Shown here: piece after piece, positions 11,524-19,911 of the stretch
Numbering within the stretch: the stretch's first letter is position 1
Layout: the number at the start of each line of letters is the position of its first letter
Source of the DNA: Elusimicrobiota bacterium
GTDB lineage: Bacteria > Elusimicrobiota > Elusimicrobia > UBA1565
Length of the DNA stretch: 40,491 bases
Direction: 5' to 3'
NCBI GenBank assembly: GCA_016218495.1
Contig: JACRDU010000004.1
Location: forward strand, 1 to 40,491
Made by a program: the position numbers and the translations under genes
Notes under the pieces: model-generated
What the model was told of the DNA's origin: nothing
The model's database searches: none
Seen by the model: only the letters and a program-made list of their open reading frames with translations

Positions 11524-11552
11524 ATTGTAGCCCGCAAGCGTTCATAAGTCCA
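11524..11552 (-). promoter_or_regulatory. Promoter of the CFA-synthase-like gene, possible leaderless start
   Basis: On the minus strand TGGACT (11547-11552), a 17 bp spacer, and TACAAT (11524-11529). The hexamer ends 7 bp before ATG 11516. The -35 element overlaps the 3' end of the lgt-like gene. Confidence 0.5.
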
Positions 11553-12384
11553 GATAGGGGCTCTCGAGGCGCTCGTCTTGGACCCGCAGCCCGCGGCGCC
11601 GCAGCGCCCAGACGGCGACGGCGATGCCGCCCAGCGAGACCCATTGCGAGGGCGAGAGCAGGGAGGAGAGCAGGCCGCCGCGGTCGTCGCCCCTCAGGGT
11701 CTCCACGGCGAAGCGCAGCGCGGAATAGCCGCCGAGGTAGAGGAAGAAGGCCGTCCCCTGGCGCAGGGTCTTGGCCCGGATGCGCGGCATGACGGCCATG
11801 GCCAGCAGGAGGCCCAAGGCCAGCTCCCCCGCCGCCTCGTAGAGCTGGGTGGGATGCAGGCGGACCCCCAGCAAGGCGGGGTCCATGTCGGCCGCCGGGC
11901 TAGTGAATGCCACTCCCCAGGGCAGGTCGGTCGGCCTCCCATGGCAGCAGCCGTTGAGGAAGCAGCCGATGCGTCCCAGCCAATGCCCTAGAGCCGCGGC
12001 GGTCACGCAGTAGTCGGCGATGGGGAGGTAGGCCCGGGGGCGAGGCAGGCGCCGGGAGTTCATGAAGACCTGGTACAGGCGCCCGGCCGCCATCGTGCCC
12101 AGGACGGAGAACCAGTAGACCCAGCCCGTGCGCCAGTCCAGGAAGGCCCGGGGGGTCTCCCGGAAGAAGTCCCACTCGACGATGAAGAAGCCCAGCTTGC
12201 CGCCAAGCAGGCCTCCCAGGATCAGCGTGTACATCATCCGCCAGAAGTCCGGCCAGGTGTCCTCGGGACGGGCCACGTGGTTGCGCCAGCGCATCAGCCA
12301 CAGCACGCCCACCGCGCACCCGGCGACGATGCAGAGGCCGTAGGCGTCCAGGCGCAGCCGGCCCAGGGACATGACCGGATGCAT
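11542..12384 (-). CDS. Prolipoprotein diacylglyceryl transferase (Lgt) family protein, divergent
   Basis: Polytopic membrane protein, 280 residues, of the Lgt family, which moves diacylglycerol from phosphatidylglycerol to the lipobox cysteine of prolipoproteins. The best-preserved block is GRIGCFLNGCCHGRPTDLPWG, followed by HPTQLYE, both typical of one large Lgt subfamily. However, the region that normally reads F-H/Y-G-G-L contains YWFSVLG, so the HGG motif with the essential histidine of E. coli Lgt is gone. It may be a paralogue with another job. ATG 12384 overlaps the upstream stop (TGATG). The frame continues upstream but only as a shadow of the preceding gene. Confidence 0.78.
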   Translation of the reverse strand: MHPVMSLGRLRLDAYGLCIVAGCAVGVLWLMRWRNHVARPEDTWPDFWRMMYTLILGGLLGGKLGFFIVEWDFFRETPRAFLDWRTGWVYWFSVLGTMAAGRLYQVFMNSRRLPRPRAYLPIADYCVTAAALGHWLGRIGCFLNGCCHGRPTDLPWGVAFTSPAADMDPALLGVRLHPTQLYEAAGELALGLLLAMAVMPRIRAKTLRQGTAFFLYLGGYSALRFAVETLRGDDRGGLLSSLLSPSQWVSLGGIAVAVWALRRRGLRVQDERLESPYLDL

Positions 12385-12698
12385 CAGCGCGCCGCCAGCC
12401 GCGCCGCATCGGAGAGGACGCGGACCATGACCGCGATGGACGCCCCGCAGAGCAGGGCCAGCCCCCAGCGCCGCTTGGCGGCGCAGGCCAGCAGGGCGGC
12501 CAGCGCGATCCCTGCCGGCCCCCAGAGGAAGACGGGGCGGGGGCCGCGCAGGAGGACCGCCTGCACGCCCGACAGGAGCAGCAGCGCCATGAAGCCCGCC
12601 ATCGCGACGGCGGCCGCGACGCGGTACATCCACGAACGATAGCGGGCTTTGAGGGCCAGGACCTCGTCGTCGCTCAGGGGCGTGAGGTCGGCGGGCAA
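12384..12698 (-). CDS. Small membrane protein, unknown function
   Basis: 104 residues with a short cytoplasmic-type start (MPADLTPLSDDEVLALKARYRSW) and three hydrophobic segments at about 25-50, 56-72 and 78-96. No family recognised. It sits between the DUF350 gene (3 bp gap) and the lgt-like gene (TGATG overlap), so co-translation with both is likely. No Shine-Dalgarno-like sequence is obvious before ATG 12698. Confidence 0.65.
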   Translation of the reverse strand: MPADLTPLSDDEVLALKARYRSWMYRVAAAVAMAGFMALLLLSGVQAVLLRGPRPVFLWGPAGIALAALLACAAKRRWGLALLCGASIAVMVRVLSDAARLAAR

Positions 12699-13254: not shown

Positions 13255-14340
13255 TCATAGGCTGATGGGTTGGATGCGGAAGTCCTGTCCGGAATCGAGG
13301 TAGGCCTGGGTCTGGTCGCCGACGGTCCCCGGCGCGATCCAGGCCGGCCCGGCGGATTCGATCATCACGTAGGGCAGGCCCTTGTATTCGAGGTAGACGT
13401 CGCCGCTGCGCGGGATGCGGTGATAGGCCATCAGGTAATGCCCCGGGATGCCCAGCCCGACCATCTTGATGTTGGGCCAGCTCAGGAGGATGGAGGCGAT
13501 GACGGCCGTCTTCGTGTCGCAGTCTCCCTGCCCGAGGATGAGGGTCTGCGGGGGCGGCATCGCCCCTCCGATGACGCGCGAGCCCTCCTTCGTGTCGGGC
13601 ACCTCGTAGCGCAGCGAGGTCTGCACCATCGCGGTGACGGCGCCCACGAGGTCTTCCGCGTCGTAGCCCTTCTCTTCGCTGACTTCGGCGAACGCCTGGG
13701 CCAGCGGACGCACGCGCCTCCAGTTGCGCTTGGCCAGCCCCGGGATGTCGGCCTTGACGACGCCTTCCTTCGCGAAGCGGAAGCCGGCCTTGGTGTAGAT
13801 TTCCATGCGCCGGCGCCGGTATTCGGCCGACAGGCCGGCCAGGGCCTTCTCGAGGTCGGCCTGGACCTTCTTGTTGATGTCGTTGATGAAGCGGATTTTC
13901 GCTTCCAGCTGGGCCCGGTTGTCCGCCTTGACCTCGCCCTTGACGTACTTCTCGTCGGCTTCGGCGGCGGCCTTCTCCTGGGCGTTCTTGTACCAGGCAT
14001 CCAGGGCCTTGAAGTCGTCCTCCCGGAAGCCGAACTCCTTTATGGCCTCGGCCACGGCCTCGGAGTTCAACTCGGTCTCCACGGTGAGGACGTCGGAATT
14101 GAAGTTCTTGAAGCCGTAGGACAGCGAGTAGCCGGCGTGCACGCGCTTGATGCGGGCGAAGGGCACCCCGCCCGAGCTCCGGGCCTTCTGCGGGGACTTC
14201 TCCGGCGGGGTGAACTCCCTGAGCTGGCCGAAGCCGCGGGGGGTGAGCTTCTGAGCGGCCCGCCCCTCGAAGGTCCAGGTGGTCACGGCGAGGAACGCAT
14301 AGCAGACCACCGCGGGAGCGGCCCAGGTCCTATCGTTCAT
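13255..14340 (-). CDS. Secreted transglutaminase-like protein
   Basis: 361 residues with a short hydrophobic start (AAPAVVCYAFLAVTTWTF) that may be a signal peptide or anchor. A helical, Lys/Glu-rich central region of about residues 60-200 is followed by a transglutaminase/papain-like core: GDCDTKT with Cys274, then GHYLMAY with His301 and an acidic residue in YVMIES (about 328) as a likely third member. Such domains act as cysteine proteases or amidases outside the cytoplasm; the substrate is unknown. The start at ATG 14340 is supported by the adjacent -10 box. It is 35 bp downstream of the PorV-like gene. Confidence 0.78.
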   Translation of the reverse strand: MNDRTWAAPAVVCYAFLAVTTWTFEGRAAQKLTPRGFGQLREFTPPEKSPQKARSSGGVPFARIKRVHAGYSLSYGFKNFNSDVLTVETELNSEAVAEAIKEFGFREDDFKALDAWYKNAQEKAAAEADEKYVKGEVKADNRAQLEAKIRFINDINKKVQADLEKALAGLSAEYRRRRMEIYTKAGFRFAKEGVVKADIPGLAKRNWRRVRPLAQAFAEVSEEKGYDAEDLVGAVTAMVQTSLRYEVPDTKEGSRVIGGAMPPPQTLILGQGDCDTKTAVIASILLSWPNIKMVGLGIPGHYLMAYHRIPRSGDVYLEYKGLPYVMIESAGPAWIAPGTVGDQTQAYLDSGQDFRIQPISL

Positions 14341-14375: not shown

Positions 14376-15542
14376 CTAATATATCCAGCCCGGCGCCAGC
14401 CGGCGGTTCTCGGGGACCTCGCGGCGCGGGCGCGCCGGCTGGTCGATGAAGTCGGGCTTCTTGTCCTCGATGCCCTTGAGGTCTTCCCGCTCGGGCATGC
14501 TCTCGATGAAGGGCTTGCGCTTCTTCTCGCGTTCGCGCTCGGGCACGCGGCCGAAGCGCCAGATGAAGGCGAACCGGTGCGTGTCGGACAGGGAATCCGT
14601 CATGCCCCAGGCGTAGTCCACGCCCAGGGAGCCGAACGAGCCGCCCATCCCCACCGTGAACCCGGCGATGTCGTCGTTGAGCCGGTAGCCGAAGCGCACG
14701 GCGAAGCGGCGCAGCGTGGTGTACTCCGCGCCGACCATCCCGCGCCAGGCGCGCTCGCGCGCGAGGTAGGAGGCGTCGCCGACGAAGGTCACCTCCTGGC
14801 GCGCCGGCAGGGTCAGGGTGTCGGGCAGCAGGGGCTTCCAGGCCACGCCGGCCCGGTAGGTCAGCGGCAGCGGGTCCCCTTCGGAGATGAAGGTCATCTT
14901 CTGGCCGATGTTGAGGATGGAGGCTCCCAGGGAGATGCCCGGCTCGGGGGCGCGCACGAGGTAGCCCAGGTCTCCGGCATAGGCCGTGGCCCGGTAGGCC
15001 TCCGCGAGCGTGGAGCGGATCCACTTCCCGCTCAGCCCCAGGTAGTGCTCGACCCGGACGGAATCGTTCTTCACCGGGACTTCGAAGGCGGCGACCCTCT
15101 CGGAATAGGCCAGCGAGGCCACGAAGTCCGAGCCGGCCTCGCGGACCTCGGTGGAGGCCAGGGAGCCGTTCGGGTTGAGCCTGTTGATCTCGATGTCGCC
15201 GTGGGAGGCCATCAGGACGCTGCCGGCGACGGCGGTGTAGCCCTCCCCGATGAGGCCGGAGAACGGAATCGGCCCGCCCAGCCCGAAGTGCTGGAGCCCC
15301 TGGTCGTCGATTCCCTTCAGGTACATGAAGGAGGCCTCGCGGGAGGACATGATGCTCAGGCCCGCCGGGTTGTAATAGAGGGCGCTGAGGTCCGAGGCCA
15401 GCCCGGTGAAGGCCGAGCCCATGCCCGAGGCGCGCGCCCCCATCGGAATCTGCAGGACCGGCGCGGCGGTGGTGCCGACGTTCTCGGCGCGCGCCGGGAG
15501 GGCGGAGAGCAAGGCCGCCGCCGCCAGGGCCGGGAGCCTCAT
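14376..15542 (-). CDS. PorV/PorQ family outer-membrane protein
   Basis: 388 residues with a signal peptide (MRLPALAAAALLSALPARA) and a beta-barrel-like sequence of the PorV/PorQ (UPF0164, FadL-like) family. Typical early marks are QIPMGARASGMGSAFTG and ALYYNPAGLS. In Bacteroidetes, PorV is the outer-membrane shuttle that collects type IX secretion substrates. Here the upstream gene encodes a protein with a type IX-like C-terminal domain, and the two overlap by 4 bp (ATGA). The last 55 residues are charged and Pro-rich (about 335-388) and probably periplasmic. The family call is good; a true type IX role is inference. Confidence 0.85.
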   Translation of the reverse strand: MRLPALAAAALLSALPARAENVGTTAAPVLQIPMGARASGMGSAFTGLASDLSALYYNPAGLSIMSSREASFMYLKGIDDQGLQHFGLGGPIPFSGLIGEGYTAVAGSVLMASHGDIEINRLNPNGSLASTEVREAGSDFVASLAYSERVAAFEVPVKNDSVRVEHYLGLSGKWIRSTLAEAYRATAYAGDLGYLVRAPEPGISLGASILNIGQKMTFISEGDPLPLTYRAGVAWKPLLPDTLTLPARQEVTFVGDASYLARERAWRGMVGAEYTTLRRFAVRFGYRLNDDIAGFTVGMGGSFGSLGVDYAWGMTDSLSDTHRFAFIWRFGRVPEREREKKRKPFIESMPEREDLKGIEDKKPDFIDQPARPRREVPENRRLAPGWIY

Positions 15543-18500
15543 TTGACCACCACGATCTTCTTGGTCTCTTCGAGGCCCGGGGCCTCGATATGCAGCAGGT
15601 AGACCCCGCTGGCGACGCGCTGGCCGATGCTGTTGACGCCGCTCCAGTCCACGGCGCCCTTGCCCGCCGGGCGGTCCTCGTCGAGCAGGGTGGCCACCTG
15701 CTGGCCGGCGATGGTGAAGAGGCGAAGGCGGACGTGGCCGGCGCCCTGGGTCTCCCACTTGATGGTGGCCTTCTCGCCCACGGCCGGATTGAAGAGGTTG
15801 TTGTACGCCGTCATGCTCGTCCCGGCCGCGGTGAGCGCGAGGGCGGTCGACTCCCCTAGGGTCTGGGTGTGTCCGAGCAGGGACACTCCGAAGACCTCCA
15901 GATGGACGGTGCCGACGGCGGGATAGCGGGAGGTGAAGCTGTTGGCCAGGCGAACGCGGCCGGCGACGCTCCCCGCCGCGCTCGAGGAGGAGACCAGGGT
16001 CAGGTAAGGGGAGACCTCGTCGGTCCGGGTGCCGGCGAGCACCGCATGGTTGTGGTCGCGCAGCTGGGCGTAGCTGAAATGGTAGGCCTGGTCCCTGACG
16101 AAGGTGGAAACCACGACGCTGAAGTCGATGGAGTCGCGGTCGAAGGACGCCGCCACGATGCCCGCCGCCACCGGACCTCGGGGGTAGGACGCGCCCAGGG
16201 AATAGAAGCGCGTGGAGCTGTTGTTGGAGACGGCCGACTCGTCGCCCTGCGGGGCCGAGACCAGCAGATAGAACTGGTTCGCCGCCGGGTTGTCGTAGTT
16301 GAGCGTCACGGTGCGGTTCGAGCTCAGGCAGTTCGTCTCGGGGCAGTTGCCCCCCAGGGTCGGATTGACGTCCAGCGTGGCCACCTGCGTCGCGACCACG
16401 TTGTAGGACCGGTCTATAAGGGTCAGGGCGAGCGCGCTGTATGTCCCCGGCGAGGAGGCGCTCTCCGGCATCGTCAGCGAGAGGGTCATGCGCCCGGGCC
16501 CCGCGCCGAGCGCGAAGTAGTCGAGGTCACCCGCGGGATAGACGCGCCCGACGACGGCCGACGCGGTGGTGATGTCCACCGCGGAGGCCATGCCGTCGTT
16601 GGGTTCGTAGGCGTCGAGGTCCCCCGTCCCCGTCGTGATGCCGTGGTCGGCGAAGCGCGCCTGGATGAGGCCGTCCTGCGAGCTGTTGGCGCCGCAGGCC
16701 GGGACCGCCGCCGCCGAGCGCGCGCTGAGCGCCAGCATCGCCCGCTCGAAATCGGCGAAGCTGTCCGGGTAGTAGAAGAGCGCGCCGAAGGTGAGCCTGT
16801 CGGCGCACTTGCGGCCGTTGGCGGCGCCGAGGGTGGTGATCATGCCCTGCCTGATGGCCCACAGCGACTGGCTGACCATCCGGGAGTCCTCATGGATGGT
16901 GCCCGACCAGTTGGTGGGATACAGGACGCAGGCCGTCCTGGCGGGGCAGTCGAGCTCGCGCAGCGAGCCGTGGCCGAAGGTGGCCGCTGTGTAGCCGCCG
17001 ATGGTGGACAGGTCCAGCGAGCTGGCCGCGAAATAATCCGCCAGGGCCTCGCTGATGGCGCCGAACTGCCCGAAGTTCACGATGGGGAAGATCTGGTCGA
17101 CGACGAAATGGGTGTATTCGTGGCGCACCACCGTGGCGTCGAAGGCGAACCCGTTGTTGACGTCCCCGATGGTGAGGTTCTGGTGGACCGGGTCGTAGAA
17201 GGCGTTGGCCAGGTTGGGGCCGGCCCGCGCCATCACCGGCACGACCTTGTCGATCGGGGCGGCCCGGCCGACGTTCGGCCCGCTGCCGCCGTCGTCGCCG
17301 GTGAAGTAGTCGTGCATCAGGTTCAGCTGATAGAACAGGTTCGCCTCGTCGAGGCGGCCGTCGAAGGAGTTGGCCGTCGTCCAGGTGAAGGTGGCGGTGG
17401 CGTTGTTCGGGATGGCGCGGTTGCTGTCGAGGGTCAGATAGCTGGACACCGAAATCGAGTAGCCGGAACGCTGGCCGGCGGCGTTCGCCTTCAGCCGCAA
17501 CTTCAACTCCTTGCCCGGGACGGCGGCCGCCCTGATGCTGTTCCTCTGCCCGATGTAGGTGGCCACGGCGAAGCCGCGTTTGTCGAGGACGGCGACCTGG
17601 TCGTTGTCCGAGATCGACAGGTCCCCGTCGGTGAGCTCGAAGGCGCCCACGTCCAGCGAGGCGAAGACCGGCATCACCTTCATCACGTTGGGGAACTCGG
17701 CGATTATGGCGGTCGTCTTGGCGCTGTCGTTGGGATAGGGGTGCTCCGATTCCTGGGGCGTCGCGAAGGTGGTCCAGACGCCCCCCCCGTTGTCGTAGTG
17801 CGCCGCCGGGCCGTTCCAGTTGGCGACGGCCACATACGGCCCCTGGAGCTGGGTGGAGATCTTGCCCGCCGTCTGCGAGCAGAAGAAGCCGTTGGCGTCG
17901 GTCAGCGAGTAGGTCGTGTGGTCCACGACGTACACTTCTTGGTTCCTGAAGGGCCGGGAGGCGGGGACCGTCTGGCGGCCCGGGTCGATGTCGTAGACCA
18001 GTCCGCGCACGGTGCCCGAGGTCAGGCAGGACTGGAAGCGCAGGTCGTTGTAGCGCATCAGGATGCGGCCGTCGTCGGCGGCGACGTAGTAGACCCAGCT
18101 CCCCCCGGCCTCGGCGCGGAACTTCCAGGCCAGCACGGGTGGGCCGCCGGCCGGCGGCGGGAACCAGACCAGCCTGCCTCCGGCCGGGGCGGCCCCGCCG
18201 AGGTCGGCCGCGGCCCGGAAGGCGGCCTGGGCCTCCCCGAGCGCCGGCACCGGGGAGCCGCGCACGTCCGCGCGGAAGGAGGAATCGAAGCCGAGGACCT
18301 CTCCGGACTCCTCGATGTGCACCTTCACCGCCGCCAGCTCCACCGGCACGCCGTCGACGATCTGTTCGAACAAGAGGTGATGGACTCCCATGTGGGTCCG
18401 CGCCGCGGCGAGGCGCAGCTGCTCGGGGCGGATGCCCAGGCTCGGCCCCTTCTCGGCCAAGAAGGCGTCGGCCGCCTCCTTGGCGCTCAGGCGCGGCCCG

Positions 18501-18730
18501 ATGGCGGAGCCCGGGCCGATCCCCTGGGCCCCGAACTTGAGGTTCCAGCGGCCGCGGTGCGAGCTGTTGAACCCGCGCAGCTGCTCCCCCACCTGCGCAT
18601 CGGAGGGCCGCGACGGCGGCGCGGGCGGGGCGTTCAGGCCGAAGCGGCGGGCGTCGGACTCGGCGTGGGGGCCGTTCATGACCGCCGCGGCGGGCACGGA
18701 CAGCAGGAGGACCAGCCCGAGCCCTTTCAC
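15539..18730 (-). CDS. Secreted gluzincin metalloprotease with FTP, PPC-like and C-terminal sorting-type domains
   Basis: 1063 residues. Order: signal peptide (KGLGLVLLLSVPAAAVM), an FTP/PepSY-type propeptide at about 80-230, and a thermolysin/fungalysin-like catalytic region with H537-E-Y-T-H541. E561 lies 20 residues on, in EALADYF, the M4 type of spacing. A pre-peptidase C-terminal-like domain follows at about 705-800 (EPNDGMASA, GDLDYFAL). The last 85 residues look like a FlgD-Ig/type IX sorting domain: NLFNPAVGEKATIKW, RLRLFTIAGQQVATL, ending VASGVYLLHIEAPG and a basic tail. GTG 18730 overlaps the stop of the HEAT gene (GTGA). Predicted to be cell-surface or secreted; the substrate is unknown. 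Confidence 0.87.
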   Translation of the reverse strand: MKGLGLVLLLSVPAAAVMNGPHAESDARRFGLNAPPAPPSRPSDAQVGEQLRGFNSSHRGRWNLKFGAQGIGPGSAIGPRLSAKEAADAFLAEKGPSLGIRPEQLRLAAARTHMGVHHLLFEQIVDGVPVELAAVKVHIEESGEVLGFDSSFRADVRGSPVPALGEAQAAFRAAADLGGAAPAGGRLVWFPPPAGGPPVLAWKFRAEAGGSWVYYVAADDGRILMRYNDLRFQSCLTSGTVRGLVYDIDPGRQTVPASRPFRNQEVYVVDHTTYSLTDANGFFCSQTAGKISTQLQGPYVAVANWNGPAAHYDNGGGVWTTFATPQESEHPYPNDSAKTTAIIAEFPNVMKVMPVFASLDVGAFELTDGDLSISDNDQVAVLDKRGFAVATYIGQRNSIRAAAVPGKELKLRLKANAAGQRSGYSISVSSYLTLDSNRAIPNNATATFTWTTANSFDGRLDEANLFYQLNLMHDYFTGDDGGSGPNVGRAAPIDKVVPVMARAGPNLANAFYDPVHQNLTIGDVNNGFAFDATVVRHEYTHFVVDQIFPIVNFGQFGAISEALADYFAASSLDLSTIGGYTAATFGHGSLRELDCPARTACVLYPTNWSGTIHEDSRMVSQSLWAIRQGMITTLGAANGRKCADRLTFGALFYYPDSFADFERAMLALSARSAAAVPACGANSSQDGLIQARFADHGITTGTGDLDAYEPNDGMASAVDITTASAVVGRVYPAGDLDYFALGAGPGRMTLSLTMPESASSPGTYSALALTLIDRSYNVVATQVATLDVNPTLGGNCPETNCLSSNRTVTLNYDNPAANQFYLLVSAPQGDESAVSNNSSTRFYSLGASYPRGPVAAGIVAASFDRDSIDFSVVVSTFVRDQAYHFSYAQLRDHNHAVLAGTRTDEVSPYLTLVSSSSAAGSVAGRVRLANSFTSRYPAVGTVHLEVFGVSLLGHTQTLGESTALALTAAGTSMTAYNNLFNPAVGEKATIKWETQGAGHVRLRLFTIAGQQVATLLDEDRPAGKGAVDWSGVNSIGQRVASGVYLLHIEAPGLEETKKIVVVK

Positions 18731-19911
18731 CGGGAGGGCCTCTTCGGGGTCTTCTGGAGCACGCGGACCAGGGCGGCCGCGGCGCGCACGCGCACCCGCA
18801 TCTCCGCGTCGTCGAGGGCGGTCTCCAGGTCCTCCAGGGCGGCCTTCTCGGCGGCCTGGTCCGCGCCGGCGATGGCCCGTCCGGCGGCGGCTTCGAGGAC
18901 CTCCACGGCGAGCAGGCGGGTGTCGGCGTCGGGCTGGTAGAGCGCCCGGCGGGCCGGGGCGAGGTCTACGGTCTCCCCGAGCCGAGCCAGCCCGGCGACG
19001 GCCAGGAGCTCGATGTAGACGTTCGAGGCCTGGCGCTTGGCCTTCTCGAGGTACTGCACGGCCCCCGGGACGCCCAAGCGGCCGAGCGCGGCGACGGCCT
19101 TGGAGCGCACCAGCTCGTTCTGGTCCTTCACCCCGCCCAGGAGCTCGGGCAGGACCAGGGGGCTCCCCGACTCGCCGAGGGCCCCCATCACCGCGGCCCG
19201 GACCTGATAGACCGTGTCCTCGGCCAAGGGCTTGAGCAAAGCGACGACGGCCGGGGTCCCCACGCCGGAGAGCGCCTCGACGGCCTTGGTCCGCAGCGCC
19301 GGGTCCTGGGAGGCCAAGGCCGACGAGAGGCGGCCCATGGCGGCCGAGTCGCCGAGCCGCGCCAGGCCCGCCGCGGCGGCGTCGCGCACGGCGGCGTCCG
19401 GGTCCTCGGCGGCCTTGCGCAGGGTGGGGAGGGTCTCGGGCACCTTCATGCCGGCCAGGGCCTGTATGGCCCAGGCCCGGGTCTTGTTGCGCGCGATGGA
19501 GCGCATCTCCTCGAGCGCTCCGAGCGCCCCCTCGGCGGCGGCCGGGCCGGGGGATTCCAGGACGACGGCCTCCACCGCCTTGACCCCGCTGGGGTCGGAG
19601 AGCTCGAGCAGGCTGCCGGCGGCGGCGATGCGGACGTACGCGCTGGGGTCCTTGAGGGCGCGCTGGAGCACGGACTTCGCCGCGGGGTTGCCGATGGGCC
19701 CCCACTGCTCCGCCGCCATCACCCTCACCTCGGAATCCTCATGGACCATGGCTTTGTGCAGGAGCCCCAGCGCCTTGGCGCCGAGCGCGGAGCGGGCCTC
19801 CTCCGCCGCTTTGGCGGAAGGGCCCGACGCCGCACAGGCGCAGGGGACTGCCCACAACAGCAATGATAGGAGGGCTACGGGGAAATTTGATTGCGGGATT
19901 GTTAATCGCAT
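18727..19911 (-). CDS. Exported HEAT-repeat protein
   Basis: 394 residues: an N-terminal signal peptide (MRLTIPQSNFPVALLSLLLW...ACA) followed by about ten HEAT/PBS-lyase-type helical repeats of roughly 31 residues. Examples of the repeat core are DSEVRVMAAEQWGPIG, DAAVRDAAAAGLARLG and NELVRSKAVAALGRLG. Such repeats usually form a binding scaffold with no catalytic activity. The start is only 12 bp after the tRNA-Arg 3' end and has no clear ribosome-binding site, so its mRNA probably begins at the tRNA promoter. Translation into the metalloprotease is coupled by a GTGA overlap, which suggests a partner role. Confidence 0.8.
   Translation of the reverse strand: MRLTIPQSNFPVALLSLLLWAVPCACAASGPSAKAAEEARSALGAKALGLLHKAMVHEDSEVRVMAAEQWGPIGNPAAKSVLQRALKDPSAYVRIAAAGSLLELSDPSGVKAVEAVVLESPGPAAAEGALGALEEMRSIARNKTRAWAIQALAGMKVPETLPTLRKAAEDPDAAVRDAAAAGLARLGDSAAMGRLSSALASQDPALRTKAVEALSGVGTPAVVALLKPLAEDTVYQVRAAVMGALGESGSPLVLPELLGGVKDQNELVRSKAVAALGRLGVPGAVQYLEKAKRQASNVYIELLAVAGLARLGETVDLAPARRALYQPDADTRLLAVEVLEAAAGRAIAGADQAAEKAALEDLETALDDAEMRVRVRAAAALVRVLQKTPKRPSR

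Follow-up and report, generated by a model that had tools for sequence, protein, structure and literature searches.

The window, by which we mean the whole 40,491-nucleotide stretch of DNA analysed here, belongs to a MAG of an Elusimicrobiota bacterium (4.15 Mb, 165 contigs, 95.4% complete; G000 below) and carries on its minus strand, in this order, a HEAT-repeat gene, a metalloprotease gene, a PorV-family gene and a gene of unassigned family (Table 1). Reading of the junctions revealed that the first three genes are joined by 4-nt overlaps: the protease starts with GTG, so that GTGA is common to the HEAT-repeat stop and the protease start, and ATGA joins the protease to the PorV gene. A sequence-only reading had already described a 1063-residue metalloprotease with a C-terminal sorting domain, followed across a 4-nt overlap by a PorV-family gene, in a block with a HEAT-repeat gene, and the coordinates, junctions and profile matches all bear this description out; its statement that the window holds no further T9SS gene is true among the genes scanned. 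The ATGA overlap suggests translational coupling of protease and PorV, but an overlap alone is weak evidence for pairing, because the HEAT-protease junction has one too and the pairs of a phylum-wide sample (see below) lack it. A transglutaminase-like neighbour had also been proposed; GDC and GHY motifs (GDCDTKT, GHYLMAY) can be picked out by eye in the product of the gene after porV, and the identity found no support from any Pfam or PDB match. This product is 43% identical over 221 aa to a homologue beside the protease-PorV pair of another genome, G089 (L161). Farther along the window, positions 11542-12633 encode an Lgt-like protein (PF01790, 1e-43) that scores below every equivalog cut-off and has a DUF350 gene and a cyclopropane-fatty-acid synthase-like gene close by.

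Table 1. Genes and features of the minus-strand block (window coordinates)
Feature	Position	Strand	Evidence or remark
HEAT-repeat protein	18727..19911	-	PF13646, 6.4e-50; N-terminal hydrophobic/signal-like stretch
Cargo: 1063-aa secreted gluzincin (M4/M36-like) metalloprotease, FTP propeptide and C-terminal T9SS-type sorting domain	15539..18730	-	
Zinc-metalloprotease active-site motifs HEYTH (residues 537-541) and EALADYF (561-567)	17030..17122	-	
Type A-like CTD (sorting domain), Lys near C-terminus (KKIVVVK)	15542..15820	-	
ATGA overlap, protease stop TGA / PorV start ATG	15539..15542	-	Junction read
PorV-family outer-membrane barrel, partner of the protease	14376..15542	-	NF033709, 132.7 bits
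Secreted-type protein, unassigned family	13255..14340	-	35 nt downstream of porV; G089 carries a homologue at this place too

The protease has Pfam matches to FTP (1.6e-6), Peptidase_M4_C (0.003) and FlgD_ig (1.3e-5), matches bacillolysin/thermolysin in the PDB at 1.9e-5 and 7e-5, and has orthologues in three other genomes. Compared with the T9SS-dependent M36 metallopeptidases of NF038113 and with thermolysin and bacillolysin (M4), it is alike in the FTP propeptide, the HExxH gluzincin motifs and the C-terminal T9SS domain, whereas its NF038113 score (20.5 bits) lies far under the cut-off of 885 and its M4 similarity is weak. Its last 90 residues match both TIGR04183 and FlgD_ig, with a TIGR04183 score of 21.3 bits for the CTD, just under the 23-bit cut-off, and of 25.4 bits, above it, in the genome scan; the CTD was also matched by our A2 and A4 profiles. 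An AlphaFold2 model of the domain (pLDDT 88.9) predicted a seven-stranded Ig-like beta-sandwich. The best PDB matches of the CTD profile were PorU (7e-11) and PorZ (1e-10), with FlgD weaker at 2e-6, and a fold search with the model returned PorZ best, FlgD and other Ig domains following close behind. Nearly all type A CTDs have a Lys near the C-terminus (PMC10994853), and 25 of 29 CTDs had it here, with Arg in three. The domain thus has the TIGR04183-type, seven-stranded Ig-like sandwich and the C-terminal Lys of type A CTDs, and not the TIGR04131/CHU_C match and PorP/SprF carrier of type B, since it matches TIGR04183/FlgD_ig and its partner belongs to the PorV family.

The assignment of the partner itself (15542-14376) to the PorV family is firm on profile and predicted-fold grounds. 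Its NF033709 score stands against a cut-off of 90, and our A3 PorV profile matched the F. johnsoniae PorV chain 6h3i_F at 1.7e-40 versus 2.7e-7 for TodX. With the AlphaFold2 model (pLDDT 85.4), the two top Foldseek matches were 8gl6_F and 6h3i_F, both F. johnsoniae PorV, ahead of FadL.

A scan of the MAG with NF033709 returned 27 PorV-family matches, an approximate count because PorV fragments sit at contig ends (C110, C154, C32 and C119), where repeats in PorV genes probably break the assembly. TIGR04183 gave 18 matches, 12 of them over the cut-off, and our A2 model, which was built from the TIGR04183 domains of this genome alone, blind to PorV neighbours, found 22 CTD-ended proteins once internal domains had been removed, so the count of other CTD proteins called for by the sequence-only reading revealed several cargo candidates in one genome. 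Reading of the junctions showed a PorV gene directly downstream, on the same strand, of 19 of the 22 CTD-ended genes. The binomial chance of such adjacency is ~4e-38 (27 PorVs in ~3,700 genes, the gene number being assumed), which together with the genome-wide recurrence rules out coincidence. With this model, 15 of 21 and 16 of 20 PorV genes in two further genomes of the order proved to have a CTD-ended gene directly upstream, and over the three genomes this was the case for 50 of 62, leaving 12 PorV genes with no CTD upstream; a few CTD proteins of the MAG (C35, C127) have no adjacent PorV. In about 39 of the 50 pairs a possible PorV start overlaps the cargo stop by 4 nt. A phylum-wide sample, comprising the one top-scoring PorV of each of 30 genomes, had a CTD-ended gene upstream in 16 cases, in pairs without the 4-nt overlap, so by gene order the pairing is phylum-wide and the overlap looks like a trait of the window's order. 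Other cargo in the MAG is mostly long and of extracellular type, including subtilases and proteins with fn3, Kelch, laminin-G, carboxypeptidase-regulatory or NHL domains. Two large cargo proteins end in near-alike CTDs (G000:C127:11898-12197 and C119:2873-3172); the C119 gene is followed by a PorV gene, and the C127 gene, across an ATGA overlap, by a large secreted-type ORF and no PorV.

Protease and PorV are found together in three other genomes. The window's protease is paired with the closest PorV in G089 (57% and 53% identity, respectively), in G190 (44% and 46%) and in G071 (36% and 40%), and between G000 and G089, 10 reciprocal-best pairs are common out of 12 PorV and 11 CTD pairs. PorV and CTD distance matrices of 49 pairs were correlated (rho 0.32, p<=0.0005), also inside each genome, and within genomes the closest PorV paralogue also had the closest CTD in 18 of 49 cases, where 3.2 were expected and 1,000 shuffles gave 12 at most. 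In the PorV tree, ortholog groups span three genomes, and the window's group joins one made up of C60, C110 and C30 (the last from G190) together with one orphan PorV of G190 (support 100/99); sequence searches with the window's CTD place the CTDs that partner C60, C110 and C30 next in similarity. On these comparisons, the protease-PorV pair and other pairs are inherited as units. Such co-divergence is consistent with a carrier specific for its neighbouring cargo, and falls short of proof because shared inheritance alone could yield part of it. Two PorV groups with no CTD neighbour are kept in all three genomes of the tree and, by analogy with Fjoh_1677 of F. johnsoniae, which serves orphan cargo (PMC12618676), may serve orphan cargo as well. 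One well-conserved orphan group (G000:C7:26103-26924, G089:C119:44187-45017 and G190:C9:204035-204859; L220, L184 and L203) is a candidate for a general PorV that would serve partnerless CTD proteins.

The earlier reading had also asked for a search for SprA and core T9SS genes, and a SprA homologue was present in 161 of 199 genomes of the phylum and in 7 of the 8 genomes of the window's family, including both other members of its genus. All of these fall below the curated cut-off (best 84.5 bits versus 200); where complete, they are mostly about 1,750-2,100 residues long. A profile of five sequences from the phylum matched F. johnsoniae SprA (6h3i) at 1.4e-29, and the relatives retrieved with a SprA profile built on the phylum are nearly all from Elusimicrobia or Elusimicrobiota. 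Two different models gave no SprA match in the window's own MAG, where the SprA_N Pfam model, uninformative here, had no match either. In the reduced family f10, most genomes with no SprA match have few PorV and CTD matches or none, as expected if these parts work together, and the exceptions, G048 and the window's genome, are probably due to gaps. The combination that the earlier reading took as fatal to its idea, absence of SprA and core genes together with no other CTD protein, is therefore not what we found. The GldM part of the search came back empty: TIGR03517 matched in 0 of 60 genomes, a result obtained with no known-GldM genome as positive control. As for the PorU sortase, the NF033707 matches listed all start at model position 861 or later, in the C-terminal CTD part, so that apparent matches in 42 of 60 genomes are CTD-only, and the two long ones that we read are CTD cargo proteins with no protease domain. 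Because PorU and GldM were not found, the system here is not a canonical complete T9SS, and in the matter of energy source and cargo processing this counts against the model proposed below. No report of a T9SS in Elusimicrobiota was found in the literature searched, which covered papers outside subscription.

In Bacteroidota, one and the same PorV serves the type A CTDs, whereas type B CTDs have cognate PorP/SprF shuttles that are encoded just downstream and also anchor the cargo (PMC12618676, PMC9143113). The Elusimicrobiota system resembles the type A T9SS of F. johnsoniae and P. gingivalis (SprA/Sov-PorV; PDB 6H3I, 8GL6) in its SprA homologue, PorV-fold barrel, seven-stranded CTD, conserved C-terminal Lys and large surface cargo. 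It differs in that the single PorV gives way to some 27 PorV-family genes in the window's genome, most of them coupled to one cargo each, as well as in the PorU that was not found, the GldM that went undetected in a search run with no positive control, and a SprA under the curated cut-off. Type B pairs such as SprB-SprF and Fjoh_3952-Fjoh_3951 are alike in that the carrier gene directly follows the cargo gene and that a genome has many paralogous pairs, with some orphan carriers and some orphan cargo (PMC12618676, PMC9143113), but the Elusimicrobiota pairs combine type A-like CTDs (TIGR04183/FlgD_ig) with carriers of the PorV/PorQ family, not of PorP/SprF. Judged by sequence, type A-like CTDs and PorV carriers here appear to follow type B logic.

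Taken together, the pairing, its recurrence and co-inheritance, the homology and predicted folds of PorV and CTD, and the conserved SprA support, with reasonable though not high confidence, a model in which Elusimicrobiota have a divergent type IX-like system and every CTD cargo is co-produced with a PorV-type barrel of its own. This strengthens the earlier idea of a dedicated cargo/shuttle unit, which fits most PorV genes and the co-divergence of the pairs, with specificity in each pair presumed. The signal sequence suggests that the protease would reach the periplasm through Sec, and its CTD would then enter the SprA-like translocon. If the homologous SprA-PorV-CTD complexes of known structure (PMC10994853) are a guide, the co-made PorV would dock at SprA, bind the CTD at the SprA pore via its loops and carry the cargo out, after which it would probably hold it at the surface of the cell, like SprF/PorP with type B cargo in Flavobacterium. 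Translational coupling would make carrier and cargo 1:1, and it is because of this coupling, and because no PorU was seen, that we propose each PorV to carry, and probably also to keep, its own cargo.

A tentative alternative is that the barrel serves mainly as a surface anchor after export, like PorP for PG1035 or SprF for SprB, instead of shuttling cargo to another site. Without a PorU sortase the route of covalent anchoring to LPS may be absent, the stop/start coupling suggests 1:1 synthesis, type B shuttles of F. johnsoniae that are not recycled are believed to be produced in stoichiometric amounts (PMC12618676), and proteins of the PorP type serve as anchors for their cargo (PMC9143113). 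This argument proceeds, however, from an absence and from gene order only, and since anchoring and shuttling are not exclusive it overlaps with the model of a co-made carrier. Less probable, and in our view rather unlikely, is a T9SS-like system with interchangeable PorV copies, in which pairing only secures enough PorV and any PorV carries any CTD. Known type A CTDs do have one PorV in common and bind it at a plastic, mostly hydrophobic site (PMC10994853), co-inheritance could by itself produce the distance correlation, and both the partnerless C35 and C127 proteins and the two conserved orphan PorV groups would fit. Against it, the window's PorV has only ~24-34% identity to the other PorVs of its genome, a divergence well beyond what dosage would require, and nearest PorV and CTD paralogues agree well above the shuffles.

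PorV is a relative of FadL, the barrel has weak Toluene_X and UPF0164 matches, and FlgD-type Ig domains are structurally close to the CTD, so that the genes could be read as coding for FadL-like porins that take hydrophobic compounds, next to secreted proteins whose C-terminal domains are of the ordinary FlgD/Ig type; this reading is very improbable, being ruled out by the profile search, in which PorV beats FadL/TodX by 33 orders of magnitude, and by the fold search topped by PorV chains, while PorU and PorZ CTDs outscore FlgD and SprA is conserved in the phylum. It is just as improbable that the window's organism has lost SprA, as its lack in G000 with both models might suggest, and that the pairs are relics, since both congeners have sprA and G000 still encodes 22 intact CTD proteins and some 27 PorVs. 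In several members of the phylum (L043, L031, L037, L240 and others) sprA is flanked by divergent lptG-lptF on one side and by a comF-like gene on the other, a neighbourhood also found in the order and in a congener, and LptF and LptG had no match in the window's genome either, although control genomes did match. Because lptF and lptG are missing too and both congeners keep sprA, an assembly gap most likely accounts for the absence of the sprA block, and true loss is less likely.

The model of co-made cargo and PorV extends the T9SS to a phylum for which the literature searched holds no report, and one whose SprA is missed by curated models. A bolder form of it, which we put forward as a possibility somewhat short of even, is that a dedicated PorV exports each type A-like cargo and stays as its permanent surface anchor, with neither PorU nor a GldLM motor. 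If PorU and GldLM are truly absent, the question is what powers and processes export, and the lack of a GldLM motor would imply another energy source for SprA-dependent export; if the dedicated anchor is real, the 'one cargo, one carrier' logic would hold on the PorV branch as well. The current view is that one PorV serves all type A cargo and that specificity belongs to type B cargo with its SprF-like shuttles. PorV as a family of tens of cargo-matched carriers would instead offer naturally occurring pairs whose covariation may reveal the code of CTD-PorV recognition.
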